A stretch of DNA of 29,135 nucleotides. Source: a virus. Position 1 is the stretch's first letter. The number at the start of each line of letters is the position of its first letter. The position numbers were made by a program, and so were the translations under genes. The notes under the pieces were generated by a model. It was not told the origin of the DNA and did not search any database. It was given only the letters and a program-made list of their open reading frames with translations. Below are positions 15,716 through 22,549 of this stretch, piece after piece. Location of the stretch: the IMG/VR virus record IMGVR_UViG_3300021959_000279, positions 1 through 29,135 of that record; one strand, 5' to 3'.

Positions 15716-17437
15716 ATGGCAACATTTGATTTTGAATTAAACATAAAGACAATCAACGGAGAGAGTATTCTCGGTGCAGGAGATGTAACGATAGCAAGTC
15801 TAAGCGTAGGCACAGATGGGCAGATACCATTTACTAACGCTACGGGTGATGACTTGGATTATAGTAGTGGGTTAACTTATAGCGGCACAGAACTTTATGC
15901 GGAGGGCGATTTAAGACTTCAACTCAACGGTCAAGGCAGTTGGGATTATACCATACAAGCAGTAGATTCTAATACCGCCAATATTGGTGGGCCAAACAGA
16001 ATTAATTACACGAGTAGTTATAGTGATTTTAGCGGCTCTGTTTATATTGCAACTGGTGGAACTTCTAAAGTTGTATCTATTGGCAATGATGGTGGTTTAG
16101 GTGCAAGACTTGGCGTAAAAGGTAGGGGCACAACAACTCAAGCAACATTCTTATTGCAGAATAGTGCAGATACAGAGTTGTTTAAGGTATTAGATAATGG
16201 AACTATAACAGACATTAATGGTAACACATTCCATTCTCTAGGCACAGATGGGCAGATACCATTTACTAACGCTACGGGTGATGACTTGGATTATAGTAGT
16301 AGTTTTACTTATACAGATGCAAATAAACAATTAAATTTAATTGCTGAGACTAGTGCAAATATCACCCCTTTATTGCTTAGTCAAGAAAACACGAGCAATC
16401 AAATGGAGTTCCAAATCACTAGCAGAAATCATATAAAGTGGGTTGGCAGTCAAGGAACAATATATCTTAGCGGTAGAGGAAACGGATTATTTATTGGTGG
16501 GGCTTCAACAGATGCATCAGCACGACTACACGTCAAAGGCAGCGGCACAACATCAGCAACAACAACATTCTTATTAGAAAATAGTGCTGGAACAAACTTG
16601 TTGAAGGTTACGGATGATGGTGCGATGGTTTCATCTAATTATATTACTGCTGATGGTTATAAGATGGGAGGTTTTACCATTGAACCAAGATCAACTGTAC
16701 CTACCGAACAAATAAGTTTTATCAGCACAGGAGGATATACACTATTTAACGTATTTGCTCAATCGTCAACATCAGCATCACCTAAACTAGCAGCATTTGC
16801 ATTGTGGGATACAGACCCAACATTTTCAAGTAATATTAATCAATTCCAACTCGCAAATAATCCAACATCATCAGCAGCAACCATATTCACCCAAGCCTAT
16901 GGTTCTGGAACTGCTAAACCTATAAAGATGCACGCAAATTGGAGTGGTGGTAATTACGAACATCTGATAATAGAAACAGATGGGGATATTGGTATGTCAA
17001 CATCTCCATCAGCACGACTACACGTAAAAGGAAGCGGCACAACATCAGCAACAACGTCATTACTCGTACAAAATAGTGCAGGAACGGACTTATTGAAGGT
17101 TACGGATGATGGTGCTGCAACATTTGATTGGGGTACTCACATATTTGGAGATGGCGGGTCGGGTTTATCAAAAATTGCTTTTAGAAGTGATGGGTTTGGC
17201 TCTTACATATCATCTAATGGGTATAATATAACTATTAGGGGTAGGGGAGCAAGTAGCGGAGGCGTTCTAATTGGCGGAACTTCAAGTCAAACAGACCTTA
17301 CAATTAGTCAATATAGGTATGTTAAATTTGCCGATGTAGGCACACCGAGTACCCTAGAGAATGGTGCTATGTGGTATGATGGAACAAATTTCAATGTAAG
17401 AATAGGAGGAACTACTTACACCTTAGATAAGACATAA
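15716..17437 (+). CDS. Tail fibre protein with internal sequence repeats
   Basis: A 573-aa beta-rich protein without cysteines or signal peptide. It holds two copies of the peptide LGTDGQIPFTNATGDDLDYS (near residues 33 and 177) and three copies of a unit like ARLHVKGSGTTSATT with NSAGT-LLKVTDDGA (near 130, 268 and 432). Repeats of this kind build trimeric shafts in phage fibres and host-like adhesins. The C-terminal end (VGTPSTLENGAMWYDGTNFN, then VRIGGTTYTLDK) looks like a typical fibre tip. It probably contacts the cell surface. No chaperone or peptidase domain is visible. Confidence 0.78.
   Translation: MATFDFELNIKTINGESILGAGDVTIASLSVGTDGQIPFTNATGDDLDYSSGLTYSGTELYAEGDLRLQLNGQGSWDYTIQAVDSNTANIGGPNRINYTSSYSDFSGSVYIATGGTSKVVSIGNDGGLGARLGVKGRGTTTQATFLLQNSADTELFKVLDNGTITDINGNTFHSLGTDGQIPFTNATGDDLDYSSSFTYTDANKQLNLIAETSANITPLLLSQENTSNQMEFQITSRNHIKWVGSQGTIYLSGRGNGLFIGGASTDASARLHVKGSGTTSATTTFLLENSAGTNLLKVTDDGAMVSSNYITADGYKMGGFTIEPRSTVPTEQISFISTGGYTLFNVFAQSSTSASPKLAAFALWDTDPTFSSNINQFQLANNPTSSAATIFTQAYGSGTAKPIKMHANWSGGNYEHLIIETDGDIGMSTSPSARLHVKGSGTTSATTSLLVQNSAGTDLLKVTDDGAATFDWGTHIFGDGGSGLSKIAFRSDGFGSYISSNGYNITIRGRGASSGGVLIGGTSSQTDLTISQYRYVKFADVGTPSTLENGAMWYDGTNFNVRIGGTTYTLDKT
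15807..15868 (+). repeat. 62-bp perfect direct repeat, copy 1
   Basis: Identical over 62 nt to 16239-16300 and in the same reading frame of the fibre gene, 432 bp (144 codons) away. The identity extends through synonymous positions, which indicates a recent duplication or gene conversion inside the fibre gene. Confidence 0.95.
16239..16300 (+). repeat. 62-bp perfect direct repeat, copy 2
   Basis: Second copy of the repeat at 15807-15868. Recombination between the two copies would delete 144 codons in frame and give a shorter fibre. The surrounding unit is repeated less exactly elsewhere in the gene (around 16517 and 17008). Confidence 0.95.
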
Positions 17438-18096: not shown

Positions 18097-18439
18097 CCTA
18101 TTACTCCTTATAGTAGCTATATTGCTGATAGTGCCTTTGGGTGCTATTGGCTTTGTCTATTCTGTAGTTAGCAGAATGCTAAGAGCTGCAAGTGTTTACT
18201 TCTGGCAGATAGCGGTTGCAATAGATGAGTTAGGCAATACTATTTGTCAAGACCTATTTAATGACCTTATGATTAAGAAAGGTGGGCATAGATTTGGCAA
18301 TAGCAATGAAACAGTAAGTTATGTGTTGGGAGTAAATAAGAAGAATGGTAAGTTGTATTGGATTGGTGCAGCACTTAGCTACATCTTACATCTGATAGAT
18401 AAGTACCACGTAGAGAAAGCAGCAGATAGAGAGCAATGA
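18089..18439 (+). CDS. Membrane protein, 116 aa
   Basis: The N-terminus is a strong transmembrane helix (LLLLIVAILLIVPLGAIGFV, about residues 3-27), followed by an amphipathic segment, a soluble region with GNSNETVSYVLGVNKKNGKL, and a second moderately hydrophobic helix near 90-105. No family recognised. With the next two genes it forms a run of three small membrane proteins upstream of the amidase, so holin or envelope-related roles are plausible. It overlaps both neighbours. Confidence 0.75.
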   Translation: MINLLLLIVAILLIVPLGAIGFVYSVVSRMLRAASVYFWQIAVAIDELGNTICQDLFNDLMIKKGGHRFGNSNETVSYVLGVNKKNGKLYWIGAALSYILHLIDKYHVEKAADREQ

Positions 18440-18780
18440 TTTACCTATTACTACTTATAGAACTAATAGACGAAACTATAAACGGAGATAAACACGACTG
18501 GAGCAGCCTTGCAAGGTTAGCTATTATGTTTTTAGTGGCTAATGCTTGGGGTTTACTGCTAGGTAGCTTTTGGTATGGGGTTCTGTATGTTTTGGTAAGG
18601 TTTGCGATTTTCGATATTAGCATAGCTTTATTACGAGGGCATAAGTGGTACTACTTAGGTACTACAAGCAGTTACGATAAGATTTTAAAGAAGTTTAACA
18701 GATGGGTGCTGCTCGTTATTCGGGTGGTATGTATCGCAACAGTATTATATTATGAAATTATTTTTTCAAAGGGTTTTTAA
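18436..18780 (+). CDS. Polytopic membrane protein, 114 aa
   Basis: Starts in an ATGA overlap with the previous gene. Several hydrophobic segments are visible: residues 2-8 (weak), about 27-45 (LAIMFLVANAWGLLLGSFWY), about 48-66, and about 90-110 (VLLVIRVVCIATVLYYEII). It therefore probably has three or four membrane helices. No family was recognised. It may be a holin-type protein or an envelope modifier in the lysis region. It overlaps the next gene by 29 nt. Confidence 0.72.
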   Translation: MIYLLLLIELIDETINGDKHDWSSLARLAIMFLVANAWGLLLGSFWYGVLYVLVRFAIFDISIALLRGHKWYYLGTTSSYDKILKKFNRWVLLVIRVVCIATVLYYEIIFSKGF

Positions 18781-18967
18781 AAAGTACGGATGGGCTAGGT
18801 TTTTAATAACTGGAGGCGGTATTGGTGGCATTATGCTGCTAGTAGCACACTTACTACACAATAAAGTAGGCGGTGGAGATGTAGAGGGGTTGGCTATTGG
18901 GCTTACCACCTTTGTTTTATGGGGTGTAATAGTTATAGCATTATACAATTATTTCGATAGAGATTAG
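18752..18967 (+). CDS. Small two-helix membrane protein, holin candidate
   Basis: 71 aa: a basic N-terminus (FFQRVFKKYGWARF), a glycine-rich transmembrane helix (about 18-36, ITGGGIGGIMLLVAHLL), a short loop with GGGDVEG, a second helix (about 48-66, IGLTTFVLWGVIVIALYNYF) and a charged tail. Small size, two helices and position just before the lysis genes fit a class II holin, but holins share no reliable signature. The stop (TAG) overlaps the GTG of the next gene. Confidence 0.65.
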   Translation: MKLFFQRVFKKYGWARFLITGGGIGGIMLLVAHLLHNKVGGGDVEGLAIGLTTFVLWGVIVIALYNYFDRD

Positions 18968-19542
18968 TGAGAATAGAGGACATCATACCCGTAATAGCTG
19001 CTCTTGGAGGTGGTGGTCTTGGCGGTTGGATATTCGGAAGAAGAAAACAAAACGCTGAAACAAAAGTTGTTGAAGGGTCTGCGTTAGAATCTATGCAAAA
19101 AGGGTATCACTCTATGGTTAACGACTTTAACGAAAGATACGAAGAGCAAGGTAAACGTATAGACTCTTTAGAGACTGAACTAAAAAAATGTAAAGAAATT
19201 CAAGGAGAGAGGTCTAAGCAATCTTTCTTAAAAGAATATGCTGCAAGTGAGTTTGGACTTCTGATAATCAAATTCAACGGAGATATTGAATACACTAACC
19301 CTACGTTTGATAGGTTCTTTGGGGTGAAGGTTGGACACTTCATAGGTAAACCATACAGAGACTTTTTAAGCGAGAAGGAGTATGAGGCTAGTAAAGCAGC
19401 GTGGAGTGAAGGAAAAGATAAAACAGAATTACTTAATTATTCTAACTGGTGGCTAGTAGAAGGTAAAAGAAAGAAGTGTAATTGGATAAAGGCTTACAAC
19501 GACAACTTTAACCAAGTGGCTTACTGCGTACTTAGAGTATAG
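18967..19542 (+). CDS. Membrane-anchored protein with coiled coil and PAS-like domain
   Basis: 191 aa with a GTG start overlapping the previous stop. Architecture: a short N-terminal hydrophobic anchor (DIIPVIAALGGGGLGGWIFG, residues 5-24) followed by RRK; a charged coiled coil (about 35-90, SLETELKKCKE); then a PAS-like domain (about 93-191). The latter has FGLLIIKFNGDIEYTNPTFD, FFGVKVGHFIGKPYRDFL and a final strand VAYCVLRV, the classic PAS beginning and end. The first half resembles small anchor proteins common in Bacteroidota phages; the PAS addition is unusual. PAS domains bind small ligands or mediate dimerisation. No kinase or output domain follows. Confidence 0.72.
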   Translation: MRIEDIIPVIAALGGGGLGGWIFGRRKQNAETKVVEGSALESMQKGYHSMVNDFNERYEEQGKRIDSLETELKKCKEIQGERSKQSFLKEYAASEFGLLIIKFNGDIEYTNPTFDRFFGVKVGHFIGKPYRDFLSEKEYEASKAAWSEGKDKTELLNYSNWWLVEGKRKKCNWIKAYNDNFNQVAYCVLRV

Positions 19543-19566
19543 GGTAATTAACCGATAATTAAAAGT

Positions 19567-20214
19567 ATGAGATATTTAACGATATTATTATTGCTTGTTG
19601 CAGCAGCAAGTAAAGCACAATGTCCAGATAGCGTAAGTTGTGGCTCAACTATTACATTATACTATAGCAGTAAGCCAAATGGATTAATTAAACAACTAGA
19701 CCTAACAACGGCTAGTACGAGAGATACTGTAGATGTTATTGTGCTACAGAACGCAACTTTGCCTTATTACTTAGAAGTAGCTAAAGGTTCTTTAGCTTGT
19801 ACAGATATAGTGACAGATATTGATTACTTAAAAGCTAACCTATCAACTACTTGGGTTAGTTGTAATACTTCTACACCACTACCAGTTTCTTTGATATACT
19901 TCGGAGCAGGGATTGACAGAAACGTAGTAACCATTGAGTGGCAAACTGCTAGTGAGGTTAACAGTAGTCACTTCTTAATACAGAGGTATGATGGAGATTG
20001 GTTAGACCTAGATACTGTAAGAACAAGCGGTAATAGCAACGAGATAAAGACCTACAATTACATAGATGTTGTTGACTGCAACGGAAGATATTACTACAGA
20101 TTAGTTCACTTTGACTTTGATGGTAGCAGTCAAGAAGAAGGTGTAGTGCCAGTAGATATTACTTGGTTTAAAAGAGAAGAAGTGATGTATGATTTATTAG
20201 GAAGAAAGTTATAA
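19567..20214 (+). CDS. Secreted protein with Bacteroidota-type extracellular domain
   Basis: 215 aa. Residues 1-18 form a signal peptide (MRYLTILLLLVAAASKAQ) with an AxA-type site before the mature protein. Residues 19-100 hold four cysteines (19, 25, 78, 99) and no recognised domain. Residues 105-197 match the fibronectin-like module common near the C-termini of secreted Bacteroidota proteins: LPVSLIYFGAG, VTIEWQTASEVNSSHFLIQR, SGNSNEIKTYNYID, YYYRLVHFDFDG. The last residues, VMYDLLGRKL, resemble the middle motif of a type IX secretion sorting domain, cut short. It looks host-derived. Located between the PAS protein and the amidase, it may act at the outer surface or in lysis; this is inference. 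Confidence 0.75.
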   Translation: MRYLTILLLLVAAASKAQCPDSVSCGSTITLYYSSKPNGLIKQLDLTTASTRDTVDVIVLQNATLPYYLEVAKGSLACTDIVTDIDYLKANLSTTWVSCNTSTPLPVSLIYFGAGIDRNVVTIEWQTASEVNSSHFLIQRYDGDWLDLDTVRTSGNSNEIKTYNYIDVVDCNGRYYYRLVHFDFDGSSQEEGVVPVDITWFKREEVMYDLLGRKL

Positions 20215-20252
20215 ATTCGCTCAAATAGACGAATAATTAAATTATCGGTAAA

Positions 20253-20369
20253 ATGAAGGATATAGCAGAAATTTGGAAGTCTGTAGATGGTTTTGAAAAC
20301 TATGAAGTAAGTAATTTAGGGAGGGTTAAAAGCCTTGAAAGAAGCATTAAGAATTTATGTCTAAAATAA
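20253..20369 (+). pseudogene. NUMOD4 motif remnant of a homing endonuclease
   Basis: A 38-codon reading frame whose product is almost entirely a NUMOD4 motif (EIWKSVDGFENYEVSNLGRV, then KSLER). In intact genes NUMOD4 precedes an HNH nuclease domain; here the frame stops at 20367-20369 with no HNH, and the amidase begins at 20357 inside it. It is best read as the stump of a lost homing endonuclease, though a short functional peptide cannot be excluded. Confidence 0.7.
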
Positions 20370-20926
20370 TCTTAGATGCTGGACACGGCACTTACTCAGA
20401 ACATAAATCAGCTATAGTAAACGGCAAGAAGGTGTATGAGGGTTTTATTAATCGACAGATTGCAGGTATGCTTGGGCATTTGTTGGAGTGGGATGGTTAC
20501 AAGGTAATTTATACAGTACATCCTTCTGACGATAGAGACTTATCTTTGTCTTGGCGAGTGCGTGTTGCAAACCAACATCCAAACGCACCACTTATTAGTT
20601 TACATAGCAACGCTTTTAACGGACAAGTAAGAGGTTGGGAAATCTTCACAAGTAAAGGTCATACAAAAAGCGATTACCTAGCAACTTGTATTTACAACGA
20701 GGTGGCAAAGGTTACTACAGATATTAAGATGAGAACAGACTTTACCGATGGTGATGCAGATAAGGAGGTAGATTATTATGTGCTAAGAAAGACTAAAGGG
20801 GTAGCAGTATTAATAGAAACTTTGTTTTTTGATAATGTGCAAGATTATGCCCTTTTAGATAGCTTAGATTTTAGACAAAAAATAGCAGCAGCGTATTATA
20901 AAGGGATAGTTAAATGGATAAAGTAA
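20357..20926 (+). CDS. Endolysin: N-acetylmuramoyl-L-alanine amidase (Amidase_3)
   Basis: A 189-aa zinc amidase that cuts between N-acetylmuramic acid and the stem peptide. Zinc ligands are in LDAGHG (H9), EGFINRQIA (E28) and SLHSNAF (H82); the catalytic Glu lies in AVLIETLFFDN (about E154). It is a single catalytic domain with no cell-wall-binding module and no signal peptide, so it needs a holin to reach the wall. The start overlaps the NUMOD4 remnant and the end overlaps the spanin-like gene by 13 nt. Confidence 0.93.
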   Translation: MSKIILDAGHGTYSEHKSAIVNGKKVYEGFINRQIAGMLGHLLEWDGYKVIYTVHPSDDRDLSLSWRVRVANQHPNAPLISLHSNAFNGQVRGWEIFTSKGHTKSDYLATCIYNEVAKVTTDIKMRTDFTDGDADKEVDYYVLRKTKGVAVLIETLFFDNVQDYALLDSLDFRQKIAAAYYKGIVKWIK

Positions 20927-21207
20927 TTAAAATATTCGTTTTAAGCGTATTTCTTGTTATCGTTGGTATGTTAGTAGCACACACAATGAGAAAGTCGAAG
21001 GAGCAGCAGTCTATTGTGGTAGAATTGAGAGATGAGATAGATAGCTTACAGAAGGTTAGAGATACTATCCAGATTACTAAATATGAAACAATAACAAAAT
21101 GGCGAGTTAGAAATGAAAAAGAGATTAGGTATATTTATTTGTCTGATGATAGCACTCAGTTGCTTATCAGAGACAGTCTACGCTCAAGATACACTCAAGA
21201 ACGATAG
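20914..21207 (+). CDS. Inner-membrane spanin-like protein
   Basis: 97 aa: an N-terminal anchor (IKIFVLSVFLVIVGMLVAHT, about residues 5-24) followed by a charged, probably coiled-coil periplasmic part (VVELRDEIDSLQKVRDTIQI). This is the architecture of i-spanins such as lambda Rz. It follows the amidase directly, and its 3' part contains the start of another exported gene in a different frame. Spanins are not recognisable by homology, so the call rests on architecture and position. Confidence 0.65.
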   Translation: MDKVIKIFVLSVFLVIVGMLVAHTMRKSKEQQSIVVELRDEIDSLQKVRDTIQITKYETITKWRVRNEKEIRYIYLSDDSTQLLIRDSLRSRYTQER

Positions 21208-21487
21208 TGTTTGCACTACAGTTGAGCAGTATAAGCTAGACAATATAATGATAACAGATTTACTCAACACAAGGTCTGAGCAAGGTGAGATAATTAGATT
21301 AAACGATAGGGAGATAATCACCTACCAGATGGAGATAAAGAACTGGGAACGCATTTCAAGCGTTTTAAGCGACTCTGTTACCTACTATAAGGGTGAAACA
21401 TCAAAGAAGCACAGAAAGCTGCTTAGAACACGTAAGATTGCGTTAGGAGGGGTTATTATTGCTTTTCTTTTTGGGGTGGTGTATTAA
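21113..21487 (+). CDS. Exported protein overlapping the spanin gene
   Basis: 124 aa with a signal peptide (MKKRLGIFICLMIALSCLSE, then TVYAQ, likely cleaved after YA), a helical periplasmic region (LDNIMITDLLNTRSEQGEII) and a C-terminal transmembrane helix (about 107-124, ALGGVIIAFLFGVVY). It starts inside the i-spanin-like gene in another frame with 95 nt overlap, which recalls Rz/Rz1. However, a good lipobox is missing (ALSC is weak) and the C-terminal helix resembles a unimolecular spanin or another membrane partner. Confidence 0.65.
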   Translation: MKKRLGIFICLMIALSCLSETVYAQDTLKNDSVCTTVEQYKLDNIMITDLLNTRSEQGEIIRLNDREIITYQMEIKNWERISSVLSDSVTYYKGETSKKHRKLLRTRKIALGGVIIAFLFGVVY

Positions 21488-21554: not shown

Positions 21555-21821
21555 TTAATTATCGTTACGCCAATTAGTGTTTTTAATATTCATTTGATAA
21601 TCTATAACATCGTTATTGATGTTAAACTCTTCAAGAACTAAATCATAGTTTAGTTTTAACTTTTCAAATAACATAACAGTTTCAGAAACTTTATCAAATT
21701 CCCATAGCCTAAAATAAGTGTCTGGCTTAAATTCTTTTGGTCTTTTTTTGTCATCACATCTAAAAATGTAACCAAATTCAGTTTTTAATTCTGCTTCTTG
21801 TGTTTCAATAAAATCTTTCAT
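21555..21821 (-). CDS. Hypothetical protein, 88 aa, partner of the Mom-like gene
   Basis: Acidic soluble protein with no recognised family (EFGYIFRCDDKKRPKEFKPD, then DTYFRLWEFDKVSETVMLFE). Its ATG overlaps the stop of the Mom-like gene as ATGA, so the two are probably translated together. The DNA is more AT-rich than the neighbouring phage genes. It runs towards the rightward lysis operon and ends about 70 nt from its last stop. It may be a modification partner or regulator. Confidence 0.7.
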   Translation of the reverse strand: MKDFIETQEAELKTEFGYIFRCDDKKRPKEFKPDTYFRLWEFDKVSETVMLFEKLKLNYDLVLEEFNINNDVIDYQMNIKNTNWRNDN

Positions 21822-22549
21822 CTTTTTGGATATTGTTTAATTTTGTTTTTTAATAATTTCATCATTTGTTTATTTTCTGTTCTATTTCCTAATAGTTTCA
21901 TATATCTTCCTTTAGCAAATCTTGTTCTTCTCTCTAAATGTGGTTTGTCTTGTAGCCATATATCTATTTTCCCTTTACCTCTAAAACCATATTTAGTAAA
22001 AAAATCTCTATCTCCCATAAAAATCTTATTAGAATCCTTATAATAAATATCATAATGCACATCTTTTGTTCTTCCTAAAAAATACCAATTTGTAGCTTGG
22101 TAAACTGTTCCTATTTCACCTGCTTTATCATCAGAAAAAGCAACGCAAAATTTATATCCTTTTTTCTTTATTTCCCTTAAACCAAAAGCAATTAATTTAC
22201 TTGCAGAATGTTCGTGTGACCACCAAGTACAAGCACCTCTATTCAATAAAAGTCCTTTTTTCTTATAATGTTCTCCAACATATTTTCCATAGCCATTACA
22301 AACTATTAATCCCATATCACCAAAACAAATAACACCAGCCAATACATCTTCAAAAAATATCCCATAGCAAAATTTAACACAAGTTCCCATTGTTCCAAGC
22401 CATTCGTATTCTAATATTATCTTTTCTGCTTGTTTATATGTTACCTCTTTGCAAACTGCCTTACTAATATCAGCTTTAGGATAACCAAACAAACCACCTC
22501 TATCGGTTTTCTCTTTTTGTTCTCTTATTATTCTTTGGTGTGCTTTCAT
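21818..22549 (-). CDS. Mom-like DNA-modification protein (GNAT-type fold)
   Basis: 243 aa resembling the Mu Mom family, whose founding member converts adenine in phage DNA to a carbamoylmethyl form and so blocks restriction. Recognisable features are CVKFCYGIFFEDVLAGVICF (57-76), RGACTWWSHEHSASKLIAFG (104-123) and the signature FSDDKAGEIGTVYQATNWYF (138-157), followed by a basic C-terminus with FAKGRYMKLLG, as in Mom-like proteins that end in KHRY-type motifs. Its DNA is visibly AT-richer than the flanks, suggesting separate acquisition. The alternative is a generic GNAT acetyltransferase. No Mu-like Com regulator is seen. Confidence 0.62.
   Translation of the reverse strand: MKAHQRIIREQKEKTDRGGLFGYPKADISKAVCKEVTYKQAEKIILEYEWLGTMGTCVKFCYGIFFEDVLAGVICFGDMGLIVCNGYGKYVGEHYKKKGLLLNRGACTWWSHEHSASKLIAFGLREIKKKGYKFCVAFSDDKAGEIGTVYQATNWYFLGRTKDVHYDIYYKDSNKIFMGDRDFFTKYGFRGKGKIDIWLQDKPHLERRTRFAKGRYMKLLGNRTENKQMMKLLKNKIKQYPKR

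Follow-up and report, generated by a model that had tools for sequence, protein, structure and literature searches.

A lysis-region phage gene that appears to descend from type IX secretion cargo, with a sorting tail that stops after motif B

The question raised by this locus is why a phage should carry, next to its lysis genes, a gene for a secreted protein that ends in what looks like a piece of a type IX secretion system (T9SS) sorting domain. The window, by which we mean the whole analyzed stretch of 29,135 bp (IMG/VR virus record IMGVR_UViG_3300021959_000279), contains the genes of the small terminase subunit, portal, prohead protease and capsid in the usual order, and it appears to be a siphophage-like contig of about 29 kb. 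Bacteroidota-type promoter motifs (GTTGC-N17-23-TANNTTTG) were observed three times in the window, as compared with 0.15 expected, and relatives of its endolysin are found in Bacteroidota phages, among others, which makes a Bacteroidota host likely. The gene of interest and its neighbors are as follows.

18752..18967, + strand, two-TM holin-like small protein (a guess from sequence reading; no PHROG match)
18967..19542, + strand, membrane-anchored coiled-coil protein with a PAS-like domain (PAS_9, E=1.9e-5, under the curated cut-off)
19567..20214, + strand, secreted protein gene, 215 aa (ORF listing and sequence)
19567..19617, + strand, its signal peptide, residues 1-17, predicted cut between SKA and Q18 (sequence reading; fit to the Q-rule; homologues alike)
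19618..19878, + strand, its Cys-bearing N-terminal stretch, residues 18-104 (no family match; AlphaFold2 pLDDT mostly <50)
19879..20163, + strand, its fibronectin-like (FN3-fold) domain, residues 105-199 (AlphaFold2, structure match, T9SS-cargo relatives)
20164..20211, + strand, its shortened short CTD, residues 200-215 (motif B, MYDLLGRK, present; motifs D and E missing)
20254..20370, + strand, NUMOD4 homing-endonuclease remnant, 38 aa (Pfam PF07463, E=6.6e-12)
20357..20926, + strand, endolysin, N-acetylmuramoyl-L-alanine amidase (Amidase_3, E=6.9e-31; phrog_435 endolysin)
20914..21207, + strand, i-spanin-like protein with an N-terminal TM and a coiled coil (weak phrog_739 Rz-like spanin, E=0.046; sequence reading)
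21113..21487, + strand, overlapping protein with a signal peptide and a C-terminal TM (sequence reading; L002 homologue)

The open reading frame of the secreted protein is real and begins with ATG. The N-terminus, MRYLTILLLLVAAASKA followed by QC, has a short n-region with an arginine, a hydrophobic core and a glutamine after the predicted cut, and it reads as a predicted type I (Sec) signal peptide of the Bacteroidetes Q-rule type, in which glutamine directly follows the cut (PMC5837995). The same pattern was seen in the phage relatives of the protein. Neither a lipobox, as the glutamine precedes Cys19, nor a second hydrophobic segment was found by sequence reading. Cysteines are present at residues 19, 25, 78, 99 and 172, four of them within the 18-104 stretch, for which no homologue was detectable in Pfam, NCBIfam or PHROG; these N-terminal 87 residues of the mature protein are probably its functional part. 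The next domain was modeled by AlphaFold2 as a seven-strand sandwich at residues 108-198, with block pLDDT values of 92-96 over residues 111-200, and the model superposed on solved FN3 domains over residues 104-200 with a Z score of about 10 and an rmsd of 2.1-2.7 Å (VIA-align). By sequence, this domain gave no significant Pfam, NCBIfam or PHROG family and no Pfam family at E<=1, fn3 models included, and a sequence search of solved structures gave no real match. An earlier note made from the letters alone had described a secreted protein with a signal peptide, a cysteine-containing region and a fibronectin-like domain of the kind found in Bacteroidota secreted proteins, and this description agrees with the cut site, the cysteine positions, the predicted fold and the T9SS-cargo relatives.

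To what proteins is the FN3 domain related? The data showed 21 matches to it in plasmid records, all from Bacteroidota and for the most part with a T9SS type A annotation. When 84,980 species genomes were scanned, 44 chromosomal loci matched, nearly all in Bacteroidota, Ignavibacteria or Chlorobiota. In 35 of 35 closed ORFs of the Bacteroidota group, the FN3 domain was followed by 73-145 residues with a CTD-like end, in which the sorting-domain pattern was PNPF ... YDxLGR ... GIYxY ... KKM. The window protein is like the T9SS type A cargo (TIGR04183/PF18962) in its signal peptide, in the FN3-fold domain at the same place and in its motif-B-like tail, but it has only 17 residues after the FN3 domain and is without motifs A, D and E. 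Naming the host through the best FN3 match in the genomes of one order was abandoned, as this match was a classical-CTD protein and did not pin the host. The only sequence matches to the domain among annotated phages came from four huge uncultured genomes (LR756500/502/504 and LR745206), which also encode TIGR04183 sorting domains. Their proteins share with the window protein the signal peptide and the same FN3 domain, with a similar layout in a 236-aa example (L013); unlike the window protein, they have a full or short CTD and, in the stretches that were read, are encoded away from lysis genes. One FN3/short-CTD protein of LR745206 (L014, 2697-4375) is split over two frames, possibly by a frameshift or an assembly error.

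A structure search of viral proteins added several uncultured Caudovirales proteins with 27-36% identity, and IMG/VR scans, using domain alignments, gave 17 contigs whose proteins consist of a signal peptide, a variable domain, the FN3 domain and about 40 C-terminal residues. In all 16 of these relatives that have an intact C-terminus, the end is a short CTD with motifs B, D and E. On these comparisons, the window gene descends from a T9SS-type cargo gene, apparently one with the order signal peptide, variable domain, FN3, short CTD. The best matches are hence cellular T9SS cargo and phage proteins with signal peptides, rather than only phage structural proteins. The view of the earlier note that the module is otherwise a host hallmark holds in that it is of host type, but is too strong, because many other phages have it. 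A 229-kb viral contig (L087, 3684-10601) even has five consecutive signal-peptide genes beside a gene for a protein of about 600 aa, a phage secretome cluster in which two proteins have a classical CTD and two have FN3 with a short CTD.

The short CTD of the phage relatives has the consensus DNRxxKxIVKIxNLxGQEVxExYxGxxIIxYxDGxxxK and is matched by neither Pfam nor NCBIfam. It was modeled as three strands in one relative, L086, whose model is weak outside the FN3 and short-CTD parts, so that a fold search with it means little. It fits what has been described for the short CTDs found in Prevotella intermedia, which are three-stranded and retain motifs B, D and E in 40-55 residues (PMC11969387). 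The window protein is different from these in having the first strand and motif B only. Within the literature searched, short CTDs were published for P. intermedia only (PMC11969387), while those described here occur in phages and Flavobacteriales. The presence of the short CTD in one of 395 genomes of a phylum-wide sample had raised the suspicion of a phage-specific sorting domain, which was given up when a sample of one order, by our reading Flavobacteriales, had it in 114 of its 395 genomes, often with at least 18 copies per small genome (G411, G416, G440 and others). All 14 genomes with the short CTD that were tested encode the T9SS translocon SprA and classical CTDs. These observations suggest that the short CTD is a host-lineage sorting signal which is common to phages, and we infer that it directs T9SS export. 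Because it is unseen by Pfam and NCBIfam, the T9SS secretomes of abundant aquatic bacteria and of their phages are probably undercounted.

Phage-encoded T9SS cargo has already been published, in Cryophage (PMC7468147) and as BACON/T9SS proteins of crAss-like phages (PMC6949934). Those phage genes encode T9SS-cargo-type proteins, as here, but their products have type A sorting domains, while the window protein is cut off and encoded in a lysis region. What appears to be new is cargo with a short CTD, both in phages and in small-genome Flavobacteriales, as well as the variant that is cut after motif B and stands beside an endolysin gene. If this is right, Bacteroidota phages widely use the secretion address system of their hosts, since such proteins are encoded by 17 viral contigs and by the four huge phages, and the one lineage that has the cargo without the address is a natural experiment on the parts of the T9SS signal that matter.

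How the tail of the window protein relates to the short CTD was seen from its length and spacing. In the intact phage relatives 58-62 residues follow the FN3 signature YYRL, as compared with 36 in the window protein. The window tail aligns without gaps to the first half of the short CTD, through motif B, and the spacing from YYRL to the motif glycine is that of the phage homologues L085 and L086, again with no gap. The part that is missing is the last 22-26 residues, which are motifs D and E; neither the GxY of motif D nor the lysine of motif E is found at the C-terminus, which ends MYDLLGRKL. On a motif-B profile built from 21 short CTDs, the tail (KREEVMYDLLGRKL) scored 8.5 bits, while true members scored 25-37 bits. 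About 5 of 10,000 shuffles reached this score, which was found at no other of 424 ORF C-termini and was the sole one among 10,425 14-mers of the window ORFs. A generic full-length CTD profile gave about 1-3 bits on the same tail, within the shuffle range, and finding the tail by this profile was therefore dropped, only the short-CTD comparison being convincing. Since the generic profile is blind to the tail, the view that it is cut off draws on its context and on the short-CTD comparison. TIGR04183 and PF18962 had no match on the window protein, and their whole-genome scan matched only another ORF, below the cut-off. A missing end in another frame or past the stop was also considered and rejected, because no GxY...K pattern came out when the bases that follow 20214 were translated. 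The cut-off sorting tail proposed in the earlier note is thus retained, with its motif B, but it corresponds to the front half of a short CTD rather than to a central piece of a classical CTD of 70-80 aa.

Published experiments on T9SS export showed that the last 13 residues and the motif-E lysines are required, and that the last 22 residues, with motifs D and E, are sufficient (PMC10202324). As the window tail is without these motifs, no T9SS passage through the outer membrane is predicted and T9SS surface exposure is less likely, although motif B alone could still be recognized. Judged from sequence, the window protein is a derivative of the T9SS cargo families and not a member of them, as motifs D and E are absent.

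To follow the history of the gene, the window was compared with L002, the one close relative with the same neighbors around the secreted gene. Amidase-based scans for the same cassette gave only L002 and the distant L005. The PAS-like protein has homologues in L002, where it also adjoins the secreted gene, and in L008 and L009, where the secreted gene is absent and the amidase is not adjoining, and a search with it in 395 genomes gave generic PAS proteins only. The genes directly 5′ of the amidase are annotated only as hypothetical proteins in Tenacibaculum phage pT24 and in Flavobacterium phage lotta8-1. In L002, an ATGA overlap joins the secreted gene to its neighbor on each side, the PAS gene at its start and the amidase gene at the end of its tail. 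In this single metagenome contig about 540 bp of the gene are deleted and the frame is shifted, which leaves MRYITILLLLVAAAKKKD and, in another frame, the last 29 codons. The last 91 bp are kept with 89% nucleotide identity, ending GGGAGAAAGTTATGA where the amidase ATG starts; the last 29 codons (87 bp) are 89.7% identical between L002 and the window, while the best amidase window of equal length is 75.9% identical. The loss of the middle of the gene in L002 makes it look accessory, and we infer that it is dispensable. Because the cut-off end is common to both phages, the truncation is old and predates their split. The window/L002 substitutions in the first 14 and last 29 codons are distributed 5/0/11 over codon positions 1/2/3, and this bias, in a small test with 16 differences in 43 codons, suggests that the reading frame was translated, and was under constraint, during much of the time since the two phages diverged. 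The nucleotide conservation of the tail could also reflect its use by the endolysin, since GGGAGAAAGTTATG looks like the ribosome-binding site of that gene in the L002 arrangement. The NUMOD4 remnant, which separates the secreted gene from the amidase in the window and is absent in L002, appears to have been inserted in the window lineage after the end of the tail was fixed. A fusion of the secreted protein to the amidase by frameshifting is allowed by the ATGA geometry in L002 but is excluded in the window by the insert of about 140 bp. The secreted gene of the window is flanked by a perfect 10-bp inverted repeat, ACCGATAATT at 19551-19560 and AATTATCGGT at 20240-20249, which could be an insertion mark, a regulatory site or chance; both junction spacers that contain it are missing in L002.

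The reading that we prefer, with a probability of about one half, is that this is a moron-like accessory gene which a Bacteroidota phage carries in its lysis region, and which is derived from T9SS cargo of the signal peptide/variable domain/FN3/short-CTD type. Its product would be exported by Sec and cut between SKA and Q, and, because the sorting domain stops after motif B, it would not be carried across the outer membrane by T9SS. It would then stay periplasmic or lie against the inner face of the outer membrane and, being made together with the lysis genes, would act on the envelope late in infection. The roles that we favor as a guess are superinfection exclusion or interference with the export of surface proteins. 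The latter is plausible, because the T9SS-dependent gliding machinery is thought to include the receptors of Flavobacterium phages (PMC7345892). The possible roles named in the earlier note were surface masking, superinfection exclusion, interference with T9SS and outer-membrane lysis.

The foremost alternative, which is possible but clearly less probable than an accessory envelope function, is that the gene is a decaying remnant, which arrived as a working T9SS cargo gene, lost its sorting end and is now being lost, and which is kept mainly because the endolysin gene has its ribosome-binding site and overlapping start in the final codons. This would agree with L002, where the gene lost about 540 bp and its frame, yet the tail is kept up to the amidase ATG. 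It agrees less well with the window, where the frame is intact, the model of the FN3 fold is of high confidence, none of the 43 compared codons has a second-position change, and the ORF is kept although the NUMOD4 insertion already parts the tail from the amidase start. It is unlikely that the protein is a working T9SS cargo with a minimal signal, for which motif B would be enough, and which would mask receptors or block superinfection at the cell surface. The full short CTD of the 16 intact phage relatives, the published phage T9SS cargo with its proposed role in superinfection exclusion (PMC7468147), and the arrest of RgpB secretion by mutation of motif B alone (PMC11969387) are in favor of such a signal, but the absent residues are just those that were necessary and sufficient in the tested species (PMC10202324).

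We consider it improbable that the protein is a T9SS decoy, whose motif B, lacking D and E, would dock in PorV or another part of the shuttle or translocon and jam the export of receptor adhesins. Motif B reaches deepest into PorV in published models (PMC11969387), and the suspected location of Flavobacterium phage receptors in the gliding machinery would give such a decoy its target; on the other hand, motif E, a reported regulator of the PorV interaction (PMC10202324), is absent, and the motif-B match of the tail is weak. A lysis factor that helps to break the outer membrane, which we find a little harder still to credit, could be suggested by the placement of the gene between membrane proteins and the amidase and by the overlaps of its start and stop with both neighbors in L002. 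However, the sequence has neither a lipobox nor another membrane segment, the protein is lost in L002, and the large-phage homologues are located outside lysis regions. The amidase and the spanin-like genes, a weak call, come next, which makes a lysis role for this protein less needed. Phage tail structures often contain FN3 and Ig-like domains, and the model is matched by FN3 folds in the tail proteins of T1, T5 and DT57C. That the product is a virion protein is nevertheless very improbable, as its signal peptide would send it out before assembly and its sequence relatives are secreted proteins.

Several other features of this phage were observed. A PAS-like domain ends the membrane-anchored protein at 18967-19542, and a sensory domain is unusual in a phage lysis region. 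The overlapping membrane/secreted ORFs 3′ of the amidase may be a spanin-like pair, although this assignment is weak. By the ORF listings, a 114-aa membrane protein is identical in the window (18436-18780) and in L009 (2094-2438), while their neighbors diverge, which could reflect a recent mosaic exchange in the lysis region. The protein at 15716-17437, a probable tail fiber, is rich in repeats, with several ARLxVKGSGTTxATTxLLxNSAGT blocks which L009 has too. Finally, a Mom-family protein is encoded on the opposite strand at 21818-22549 (PF25680, 5.6e-22), and its gene is likely one for DNA modification or anti-restriction.
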